This document shows positions 30,770 to 34,521 of a stretch of 64,000 nucleotides of DNA, in pieces. The notes under the pieces are model-generated. The model was not told where the DNA came from and did no database searches. It saw only the letters and a program-made list of their open reading frames with translations. A program made the translations under genes and the position numbers. Source of the stretch: Defluviimonas salinarum (lineage in GTDB: Bacteria > Pseudomonadota > Alphaproteobacteria > Rhodobacterales > Rhodobacteraceae); contig NZ_JAPDOG010000007.1 in NCBI RefSeq assembly GCF_026013545.1, forward strand, positions 62,001 to 126,000, given 5' to 3'. Every line of letters starts with the position of its first letter. The stretch's first letter is position 1.

Positions 30770-31756
30770 ATGGCGGACAAGATGCTCGACACGATAGCGA
30801 AACCCACCGAGGAAATCTCCGTCCGGGAGGTCTTCGGCATCGACACCGAGATGAAGGTCAAGGGCTTTACCGAGAAGACCGACCGCGTGCCGGAGATCGA
30901 CCCGACCTACAAGTTCGACCCCGACACCACGCTCGCGATCCTCGCGGGCTTCGCCTACAACCGGCGCGTCATGATCCAGGGCTATCACGGCACCGGCAAG
31001 TCGACCCATATCGAGCAGGTCGCCGCGCATCTGAACTGGCCCTGCGTGCGGGTCAACCTCGACAGCCACATCAGCCGGATCGACCTCATCGGCAAGGACG
31101 CGATCAAGCTCCGCGACGGCAAGCAGGTGACCGAGTTCCACGAGGGCATCCTGCCCTGGGCGCTCCGCAATCCCGTCGCCATCGTCTTCGACGAATACGA
31201 CGCCGGCCGCGCCGACGTGATGTTCGTGATCCAGCGGGTGCTGGAGCATGACGGCAAGCTGACGCTCCTCGACCAGAACGAGATCATCACGCCGCACCCC
31301 TCGTTCCGGCTCTTCGCGACCTCGAACACCGTGGGCCTCGGCGACACGACCGGACTCTACCACGGCGTCCAGCAGATCAACCAGGCGCAGATGGACCGCT
31401 GGTCGATGGTGGCGACGCTGAACTACCTCAGCCACGATGCCGAAAGCGCCATCGTTCTGGCCAAGAACCCGCATTACAACACCGAGAAGGGCCGCAAGAC
31501 GATCTCCCAGATGGTGACCGTCGCCGACCTCACCCGCACCGCCTTCATGAACGGCGACCTCTCGACCGTGATGAGCCCCCGGACGGTGATCAACTGGGCC
31601 CAGAACGCCGAGATCTTCCGCAACACCGGCTACGGCTTCCGCCTCACCTTCCTCAACAAGTGCGACGAGCTCGAACGCCAGACCGTGGCCGAGTTCTACC
31701 AGCGCTGCTTCGACGAGGAACTCCCCGAGAGCGCGGCGAGCCAGAGCATCCGGTGA
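30770..31756 (+). CDS. cobS: Cobaltochelatase subunit CobS (AAA+ ATPase)
   Basis: A 328-residue AAA+ motor of the aerobic CobNST cobaltochelatase, which inserts Co(II) into hydrogenobyrinic acid a,c-diamide in cobalamin synthesis. Walker A is GYHGTGKST (71-79) and Walker B is VAIVFDEYD (136-144). The N-terminal [16 protein letters not shown] is typical of CobS. ATG 30770 has AGGA upstream. Its stop (TGA) shares one base with the start of a small exported-protein gene that separates it from cobT. A direct repeat GTCGCAATCG lies at 30651 and 30667 upstream. Confidence 0.97.
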
Positions 31757-32199
31757 TGCGGCCGGGGCGTTCGCTCGGATTTTGGCTACCGGGACTGGCG
31801 GTCTCCCTCGTCGCTTCGGCTGCCGTGGCAGAGAAAACCAAACTCTCACCCATTGCACCAACCGAGGTTCAAGACGCGGTTCTTGATAATCGACAGCGAT
31901 GCGCCGTGTTCTTCGATGCGGTCGTCATGCAATACGAACTGCATCGGGATGGTCGTGTACCCGGCTTTAAACCCGGATATGAAACGCCATTTGCCTTCGC
32001 GTGGAGCGACGAGATCAGAAATTGGGTGGAGAGAAATCGCGCGCAGGAAAAAGCTGATGCGCAGCGTCTGTTTCAAGCTTACGCCGACAGCTTTGGCCCG
32101 ATCACTTTCCCCGAAGCTGTCTCGAACCGCGAGTTGTACCAGAGTGACAAGAGCTATTGCCTAGAACTGGTGGAGACGGACCGTGACGCAGCGGACTGA
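31756..32199 (+). CDS. Hypothetical exported protein inserted between cobS and cobT (1)
   Basis: A 147-residue protein with a Sec signal peptide (about residues 1-24, ending AVAE) and a charged mature domain with one or two cysteines (RQRCAVFF, KSYCLEL). I do not recognise a family. The start overlaps the cobS stop by one base, so translation is coupled to cobS. Its composition is less G/C-rich than cobS or cobT. It ends 17 bases inside the next small gene. Confidence 0.7.
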   Translation: MRPGRSLGFWLPGLAVSLVASAAVAEKTKLSPIAPTEVQDAVLDNRQRCAVFFDAVVMQYELHRDGRVPGFKPGYETPFAFAWSDEIRNWVERNRAQEKADAQRLFQAYADSFGPITFPEAVSNRELYQSDKSYCLELVETDRDAAD

Positions 32200-32656
32200 C
32201 ACCCCCGCCGATCCGTTCAAGAAGGCCCTGCTTGCGGTGGTTGGCTGTCTGACCCTGACGGGCGCAAACGTTGCCCATGGCGCTCCTTGCTGGGGCGGGA
32301 GCGTAACGAAACTTGAGCCCACGCCAGAACAGAAGACCCAGATCGCCCAGCGTTTCGCGTTGGTATGTCGAACGAGAACTCCCCAAACCGGCCAACCGAT
32401 AAGACTCTTCACACTGCCCGACCGTACCGCGATATATGACCCTGAACGCGCGCCAACCTATGTCGATCTCGTGGTGTCCGAAATCGTGCAGTCCGGACCC
32501 GACCAGTTCCTTGGCGGCGCCGTCGGTACGACGAACCGTTGCCCGGCACTGACTCGTGTCGAAACCGATGCCGATGGCAAGGAAGTCACGCTGAACCACT
32601 GGTATCTGCTCTCCGCCGACCTGTACTGCGAACTCAAGCAACCGGGTGAGGAATGA
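32183..32656 (+). CDS. Hypothetical exported protein inserted between cobS and cobT (2), with cobT-derived start
   Basis: A 157-residue protein starting with GTG 32183. Its first 16 residues, [16 protein letters not shown], match the start of CobT ([16 protein letters not shown]) at 13 of 16 positions, and 24 bases in this segment are identical. The sequence then continues as a signal-peptide-like [19 protein letters not shown] and an unrelated mature domain with four cysteines (CWGG, LVCRT, NRCPAL, LYCEL). No family is recognised. Its end overlaps the cobT start by four bases. Confidence 0.72.
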
Positions 32657-34521
32657 CCCACCGCTCCGACAACCCCGCCGATCCGTTCAAGAAGGCGCTG
32701 GCCGAGGCCACCAAGACGATGGCCGACGACCCGGACCTGACGGTCTCCTATTCCGTCGATCCGCCGGGCATGACCGCCGACACGATGCGGCTGCCGCAGG
32801 TCTCGCGCCGAATGACGCGCGAGGAAGTGCTGATCGCCCGCGGCACGGCGGACGCCTTCGCGCTCCGCCACCGCCACCACGACCTCAAGGTCGCCGCGAA
32901 ATACCTGCCCCAGGGCCAGATGGCGCGCGATCTCTACGAGGCGATGGAGACCGCCCGCTGCGAGGCGGTGGGCGCGCGGGCCATGCCCGGCACGCTCGGC
33001 AATATCGACGCCAAGATCGGCGCGGAGGCCGAGCGCAAGGGTTATTCCCAGATCCGCTCGGCGCAGGAGGCGCCCTTGGCGCAGGCCGCGGGCTATCTCG
33101 TCCGTCACCTCGCGACCGGGCGCAAGATGCCCGGCGGTGCCCAGAACGTGATGGAGCTCTGGCGCCCCTTCATCGAAGAGCAGGCCGGCGGCACGCTTGA
33201 GCATGTCGACGAGGTGCTGGCCGACCAGGCCGCCTTCGCCCGCCTCGCCCGGCAGGTGATCAAGGACCTCGGCTACGGCGACCAGCTCGGCGACGACCCG
33301 GACATGGAGGACGAATCCGAGGGCGACGAGGCCCAGCAGGAAGAGCAGGAAAGCCCCGAGAGCGAGGAAGGCGAGGACCAGTCCGAGGAATCCGAAGCCA
33401 GCCCCGAGCAGTCCCAGGACGAGCAGGACGACCAGTCCCAGGCCGAAGTCACCATGGACGACATGGCCGAGATGGAGGACGGCGACGAGGCCGAGATGCC
33501 CGAGGGCGAGGCGCCGCTGGAGCCGCCCCCGCCCCCGCCGCATTCCGACGCCGATCCGAACTATTCCGTCTACACCACGGATTTCGATGAGGAAATCAAG
33601 GCCGAGGACCTGGCCGAGCCGGCCGAGCTCGAACGCCTGCGCGCCTATCTCGACCAGCAGCTCGAACCCCTGAAAGGCGCGGTCTCGCGGCTCGCCAACA
33701 AGCTCCAGCGCCGGCTTCAGGCGCAGCAGAACCGGTCTTGGGAGTTCGACCGCGAGGAAGGCATCCTCGACGCCGGACGCCTCGCCCGCGTGGTCGCCAA
33801 CCCGACGACGCCGCTGTCGTTCAAGGTCGAGAAGGACACCGAGTTCCGCGACACCTGCGTGACGCTCCTGATCGACAATTCCGGTTCGATGCGGGGCCGG
33901 CCGATCTCGATCGCCGCGATCTGCGCCGACGTCCTCGCCCGCACGCTCGAACGCTGCCAGGTCAAGGTCGAGATCCTCGGCTTTACCACCCGCGCCTGGA
34001 AGGGCGGCCAGAACCGCGAACGCTGGCTCGCCGCCGGGCGTCCGGCGCAACCGGGGCGGCTCAACGATCTGCGCCACATCATCTACAAGCCCGCCGACGC
34101 GCCGTGGCGGCGGACCCGGCCCAACCTCGGGCTGATGATGAAGGAAGGGCTCCTGAAGGAGAACATCGACGGCGAGGCGCTGGAATGGGCGCACCGGCGG
34201 ATGATCGGGCGGCCCGAGCAGCGCAAGATCCTGATGGTGATCTCCGACGGCGCGCCGGTCGACGATTCGACGCTCTCGGTCAATCCCGCGAACTACCTCG
34301 AGAAGCACCTGCGCGACGTGATCGCGATGGTCGAGAAGCGCAAGGCGGTGGAGTTGATCGCCATCGGCATCGGCCATGACGTGACCCGCTACTACCAGCG
34401 CGCGGTGACGATCACCGATGTCGAGCAACTGGCGGGCGCGATGACCGAACAGCTCGCCGCGCTTTTCGACACCGACCCCAGGGCGCGGGCACGGGTGATG
34501 GGGATGAAGAAGGCGGGCTGA
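32653..34521 (+). CDS. cobT: Cobaltochelatase subunit CobT
   Basis: A 622-residue partner of CobS in the CobNST chelatase. The order is an N-terminal helical region, a very acidic Glu/Asp/Ser/Gln-rich linker (about residues 215-300), and a C-terminal von Willebrand A domain with the MIDAS motif DNSGSM (408-413). Length and layout are normal for CobT, so the gene is probably functional despite the upstream insertion. GTGAGG sits just before the ATG, within the end of the inserted gene. Confidence 0.97.

Follow-up and report, generated by a model that had tools for sequence, protein, structure and literature searches.

How does a gene come to begin with the start of the gene that follows it? 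In the cobalamin operon of Defluviimonas salinarum, two small genes, here called A and B, lie between the cobaltochelatase genes cobS and cobT, and gene B opens with a near copy of the first codons of cobT. We examined this locus in the window (the whole stretch of DNA that was analysed, 64,000 nucleotides) and compared it with genomes of the same genus, whose named members are Defluviimonas and Albidovulum, and of the wider Rhodobacteraceae.

Gene layout and the copied cobT start

The four genes overlap throughout (Table 1). The ATG of gene A sits within the cobS stop codon (TGATG), the GTG of gene B lies 17 nt inside the 3′ end of gene A, and the gene B stop overlaps the cobT start in an ATGA at 32653-32656. 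GC content is 0.55–0.61 in 300-bp steps within A and B and 0.63–0.76 in the steps outside, and GC3 is 0.60 for gene A and 0.67 for gene B versus 0.95 for cobS and 0.91 for cobT. The original prediction, made from the DNA letters alone, had described two coupled, lower-GC genes at this position, and the overlaps and composition bear it out. The N-termini of A and B were both signal-peptide-like when judged by eye.

Table 1. Features of the cobS-cobT locus, in window coordinates
Feature	Coordinates	Strand	Remarks
cobS, cobaltochelatase AAA+ subunit	30770..31756	+	TIGR01650, E 1.6e-177, above cut-off; intact; left flank of variable interval
Gene A, 147 aa, signal-peptide-like N-terminus	31756..32199	+	without Pfam family; relatives at the equivalent junction in L027 and L108
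Gene B, 157-aa orphan	32183..32656	+	cobT-like leader, then hydrophobic signal-peptide-like stretch
Copied cobT start, first 16 codons of gene B	32183..32230	+	13/16 residues as in CobT; start codon GTG, not ATG
Identical 24-mer, copy 1 (within gene B)	32203..32226	+	
cobT, cobaltochelatase VWA subunit	32653..34521	+	TIGR01651, E 2.7e-251, above cut-off; intact; right flank
Identical 24-mer, copy 2 (within cobT)	32673..32696	+	

That gene B begins with a copy of the cobT start, sharing 13 of 16 residues and 24 identical bases, had also been predicted and was confirmed against the genome's own cobT. When the 5.0-Mb assembly was searched with the 22-base core, allowing up to three mismatches, just two sites were found, which are the two copies of the 24-mer; a reversed-pattern control gave none. 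Upstream of the 24-mer, 14 of the first 21 nt of copy 1 equal those of cobT, a level reached by 41 of 5323 background start-codon positions (0.8 %). In the window's own gap, the best copy of bases 19–48 of cobT has 2 mismatches in 30, compared with 10–18 in 30 for the same comparison in 141 other cobS-cobT gaps, none of which holds a similar copy (four of 146 gaps were too short to test); an earlier scan of a first set of 74 gave 9–17 mismatches of 30. Among 179 other N-termini of genes carried in such gaps, the next best match to the first 16 residues of CobT is 5/16. The copied start is therefore real and statistically secure, and it lies at a naturally variable place, as described below; it is a single event, ordinary in kind.

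As start codon position and frame coincide in the two, we regard all 16 codons as copied, and copy 1 as derived from a related, non-identical cobT. The MTQR with which copy 1 begins is that of other Defluviimonas-type CobT proteins (MTQRSDNP, 11 of 146 intervals), whereas the CobT of this genome begins MTHR. The two copies differ at 7 of the first 21 nt and at none of the next 24. One possibility is that the 5′ end of cobT was first doubled in tandem and that the body of gene B was later inserted between the copies, which would yield the observed order of copy, B body and intact cobT and agree with the start codon position and frame kept in both copies. However, such a local duplication requires two events, only about 43 bp of the duplicate are recognizable, and both the seven early differences and the MTQR fit poorly with an origin from the genome's own gene, making it rather unlikely.

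The sequence that was copied is widely conserved, as an exact 20-mer of the core recurs in 48 of 146 intervals and CobT residues 8–16 are strongly conserved in 122. Given the latter, gene B might have been selected to keep the CobT N-terminus in order to bind a partner of CobT, acting perhaps as a decoy or as a partner of the chelatase. Yet the signal-peptide-like hydrophobic stretch directly follows the leader, which would place the leader in the part that is cleaved, and no other B-like protein keeps it; we regard selection for binding as very improbable.

The exact 24-base direct repeat flanking a 470-bp segment also raises the question of site-specific integration, with the 24-mer as a duplicated attachment site and the piece between the copies as the integrated element. 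This candidate was rejected as extremely unlikely, since the segment consists of gene B and a new cobT start alone, with no recombinase, and the repeat is absent from the 141 other tested gaps despite the wide conservation of its core. Nor do a mobile element or an integron-like cassette fit, as the interval contains no recombinase and the repeat is missing from the 141 other tested gaps. The suggestion that a cassette carries the cobT-start duplication with it is thus not supported, and the locus has the appearance of a scar left by recombination at a site prone to change, not of a new mobile element.

The cobS-cobT interval across Rhodobacteraceae

We collected cobS-cobT intervals from 22 genomes of the genus (18 regions fetched), from the best 80 of 491 loci by cobT similarity and from 80 of 377 genomes with a cobT match, taken from the top of the similarity list, so that the sample leans to close relatives. 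Of 180 loci, 34 were removed because they lacked an upstream cobS (7) or were duplicates (27), which left 146 distinct intervals. The gap ranges from 5 to 4138 bp, with a median of 698 bp; it is 30 bp or less in 4 intervals, 31–200 bp in 38 and above 200 bp in 104. The expectation that cobS and cobT are normally adjacent is not borne out, as the two genes are usually apart in Rhodobacteraceae. This corrects the view of them as tight neighbors in this family and points to uncharacterized secreted families between them. In a literature search of titles and the starts of abstracts, whose scope left out most subscription journals, no item treated the cobS-cobT interval.

For comparison, gaps between sucC and sucD in Rhodobacteraceae range from 10 to 2946 bp and exceed 200 bp in 35 of 56 pairs, whereas a second control pair, which we take to be mtkA-mtkB-like, has gaps of 14–41 bp in 15 of 15 cases and above 200 bp in none. 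The sucC-sucD comparison started from 75 sucC rows, one of which had no pair; three were left out (G098, on a contig different from that of its sucD; G074:C99, partial; and G022:C6, below cut-off). Partner genes with variable gaps are thus likewise found at sucC-sucD, a likeness in gap lengths, and the idea that the cobS-cobT gap is a unique hot spot was dropped. The window's own genome has one sucC and one sucD match (G000:C10:29586-31654), both of the mtkA-mtkB-like type; the other sucC/sucD type, present in the congener G020, was not found there, possibly through a missing contig.

What the intervals carry varies as well. Clustering of 181 cargo genes, chosen by a GC3 rule, gave as its largest groups a secreted family of about 130 aa without a Pfam match, which we label CAGR (35 genes in 30 intervals), an Asp/Glu racemase (24 intervals) and an NADPH-dependent FMN reductase on the opposite strand (24 intervals). 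Smaller clusters included MKMKIG (7), transposase-like (4), F31 (4), F110 (4) and further small groups, along with 51 singletons; because of the picking rule, certain cargo genes escaped, the L168 racemase among them, and a number of the singletons are spurious. Pfam families among the cargo representatives were PF01177, PF03358, PF00565 (SNase), PF15919 (HicB), PF01755, PF13350, PF00291 and PF01638, and a transposase match fell below its cut-off. In line with the original prediction, different species thus have different cargo at the same spot, ranging from racemases and FMN reductases to secreted proteins, orphans and a HicB antitoxin.

Some of this cargo is coupled to its neighbors. An ORF of at least 80 aa starts at the cobS stop in 46 of 146 intervals, as counted by a mechanical rule that admits a few clearly antisense frames. 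Sixteen of the 46 also end in the cobT ATGA, or 15 when L106, which is antisense to a reductase, is set aside. These 15 single genes comprise four racemases, three proteins of F110 type, one of A type, one of F31 type, one glycosyltransferase-25-like protein and five without a Pfam family. As they span at least 10 unrelated groups, each coupled to both cobS and cobT, coupled single cargos are exchanged at the cobS-cobT junction. The window has the same coupling at its outer ends, spread over two genes.

Several individual gaps merit mention. Transposase-like proteins of the IS200/Y1 type, below the Pfam cut-off, lie in the gaps of L038, L041, L081 and L202, and in L038 they are accompanied at both ends by inverted repeats of the GTAGG..GGGCAATATTGCCC type. 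A HicB antitoxin is encoded on the opposite strand in L083 (PF15919) and L169 (by similarity), followed in L083 by a small frame that looks HicA-like by eye. The 82–85-bp gaps of three congeners (L030, L032 and L036) contain two successive palindromes, which are similar among the three.

Gene A, gene B and slot-bound secreted families

As predicted, neither protein belongs to a recognized family: A and B have no significant match in Pfam or NCBIfam, including, for gene B, the CobT families (TIGR01651 and PF06213). For gene A, PHROGs, PADLOC and PDB sequences yielded nothing usable and no relatives were found among plasmids or viral contigs. Its predicted structure is helical (pLDDT 62.8), and Foldseek gave no match at E 0.001 or better. 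For gene B, PADLOC gave no match, the best in PHROGs was at E 0.018, PDB sequences yielded nothing usable, plasmids and viral contigs contained no match, and one phage match was at E 0.7. A phage, plasmid or defense origin for either gene thus finds no counterpart in the phage, plasmid, viral and defense collections.

Relatives of gene A do occur at the same place. A search of 394 genomes of the family recovered, besides the window's own genome, G262 (E 2.5e-5) and weak matches in G027 (E 0.0036) and G063 (E 0.0075), neither of which is near cobS or cobT. In G262 (locus L027), the relative lies directly 3′ of cobS, with its start inside the cobS stop; in a phmmer search of ORFs from the intervals, it matches gene A at E 6.4e-7. 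The interval search alone revealed another relative in Octadecabacter ascidiaceicola (L108; E 0.17 with a single query and 9.5e-4 with a two-sequence profile), which fills the cobS-cobT gap and overlaps both neighbors. The alignment of the three proteins has 14 invariant columns, two of which are cysteines, and a three-sequence profile run against the 394 genomes found G262 again and a weak match in G161 (E 0.005). Shared sequence and a place directly after cobS thus unite gene A with L027 and L108, which both belong to other genera. As these relatives sit at the cobS junction without gene B, gene A is more plausibly an uncommon resident of the junction, from a probably rare family, than one half of a two-gene A-B cassette, and the proposal of a single two-gene cassette is not supported. 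The gap of G262 contains three successive genes for secreted proteins (L027, 1243-2718): the relative of A, one of F31 type and one of CAGR type.

Searches of 61 relatives, 394 family genomes, 86 class genomes and the 146 intervals yielded no convincing relative of gene B. The 61 relatives gave one weak match (G005; E 2.1e-4, 27 %, two internal stops). A search with the B body gave, besides its own genome, 21 of the 394 at E 0.0018–0.05, with matches that are partial and often contain internal stops; none of those whose loci were fetched is near cobS or cobT. The 85 other genomes of the class draw had none at 1e-3. Because likeness to CobT is confined to the 16-residue leader, gene B does not qualify as a CobT fragment or paralogue. 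The circumstances that were expected to undo the original prediction, relatives sharing both genes in a stable arrangement or a leader that is a conserved domain of both proteins, were not found; taken together with the points above, its interpretation is partly supported.

Could gene B be untranslated, its open frame and its match to cobT being the remains of a broken insertion? The lack of a relative, a GC3 far below that of the genome's own genes and a structure prediction that is uninformative (pLDDT 37.6) would all fit. Against this stand 157 stop-free codons, overlapping starts and stops on both sides and a GC2 that is the lowest of the three codon positions, as in coding DNA, and we consider an untranslated gene B improbable. 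As far as sequence comparison goes, gene B is best read as a foreign or very fast-evolving orphan.

The CAGR family is tied to the same place. A search of 61 genomes gave 15 matches in 14 genomes, of which 14, in 13 genomes (G069, G066, G023, G100, G026, G091, G068, G097, G070, G086, G085, G071 and G083), lie 159–2562 nt downstream of cobS on the same strand, and one weak match lies elsewhere; L027 and loci of L069 type are examples. That CAGR proteins are found almost only after cobS suggests more than a neutral gap. It is conceivable, if doubtful, that selection has made the junction a docking site for genes of small exported proteins. Families nearly confined to it, such as CAGR and the A family, would then have their translation coordinated with that of the chelatase and would act in cobalt or cobalamin handling at the cell envelope. 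Newcomers such as gene B would be recruited through capture of the cobT start, from which they would obtain their initiation region as well as the n-region of a hybrid signal peptide.

We also considered whether all secreted proteins in these gaps, gene A included, form one superfamily with a C-A-x-x-F-like motif, and rejected this because profile tests were weak: F31 matched CAGR members at E 0.0012–0.5, and gene A matched others at 0.0056 at best (L173). Against the CAGR, F31 and F110 groups, gene A had no profile match better than E 1.2, and profile-profile comparison did not exceed a probability of 20 %.

Origin of the junction

The reading we favor, with a probability of roughly 0.55, is that the cobalamin operon of Rhodobacteraceae has a variable slot between cobS and cobT and that homology-assisted illegitimate recombination joined a gene for a secreted protein to a cobT start. 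Signal peptides often begin M(K)KKALL. The body of gene B may have been joined in frame to the cobT start at a short sequence common to cobT (TTC AAG AAG GCx CTG, encoding FKKAL) and to the start of an earlier, MKKALL-like signal peptide of gene B. At one end, incoming DNA would have paired with homologous sequence in one of the conserved flanks (cobS or cobT); at the other, where the junction lies at AAGAAGGC, it would have been joined through microhomology. Thereafter, gene B would be read from the captured start, overlapping gene A and cobT, and its product would presumably be exported with a hybrid signal peptide.

Such an event could have had either of two polarities. A resident cobS-A-cobT arrangement may have gained gene B together with a second cobT start. 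Alternatively, cobS-A-cobT′ DNA of a relative may have entered a resident cobS-B-cobT arrangement, so that gene B came to be fused to the first 16 codons of cobT′. Copy 1 is the more diverged, which mildly favors entry of gene A with a foreign cobT start beside a resident gene B.

In favor of recombination, we count the uniqueness of the copy both in the genome and among the tested gaps, the high variability of gap size and cargo, the low GC3 of A and B, and the A relatives directly after cobS in G262 and between cobS and cobT in L108. Against it, we count that the copied start is present in one genome only, that, if it was copied whole from the genome's own cobT, later change was oddly uneven (7/21, then 0/24), that the L108 relative was found only inside the intervals and that the weak A matches in G027 and G063 are away from cobS. 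Sliding identity of cobS and cobT versus 17 congeners gave no clear recombination tract, and the proposed earlier start of gene B was not seen in any relative.

If recombination at a variable slot is correct, the locus would hold a readable footprint of the one-step incorporation of an orphan gene into a conserved operon, since a start and leader borrowed from the downstream gene would place the newcomer in frame and couple it at once. Homology-assisted illegitimate recombination has been proposed for small variable segments (PMC2884548), and homology-facilitated illegitimate recombination was suggested by the authors for the way in which type VI effector modules of Vibrio cholerae have displaced one another in sequence (PMC5361080). 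The loci of the first paper have short segments that differ at a single site flanked by conserved genes and that lack an integrase or transposase; one end is attributed to homology and the other to illegitimate joining, the explanation we propose for cobS-cobT. Those loci are compared between strains of one species, whereas we compare species and genera; the cobS-cobT site also differs in lying inside an operon, in cargos that overlap both neighbors and in having a copied gene start at one junction. The V. cholerae loci of the second paper likewise gained new genes at a single site and retain traces of what was displaced, but their cargos are effector-immunity modules beside a secretion cluster, whereas the cobalamin operon carries unrelated small genes and the window has no sign of effector-immunity pairs.

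As a separate observation, the window's genome contains a second CobT-like stretch at G000:C6:107666-108214 (L025), with 46 % identity to CobT residues 395–576.
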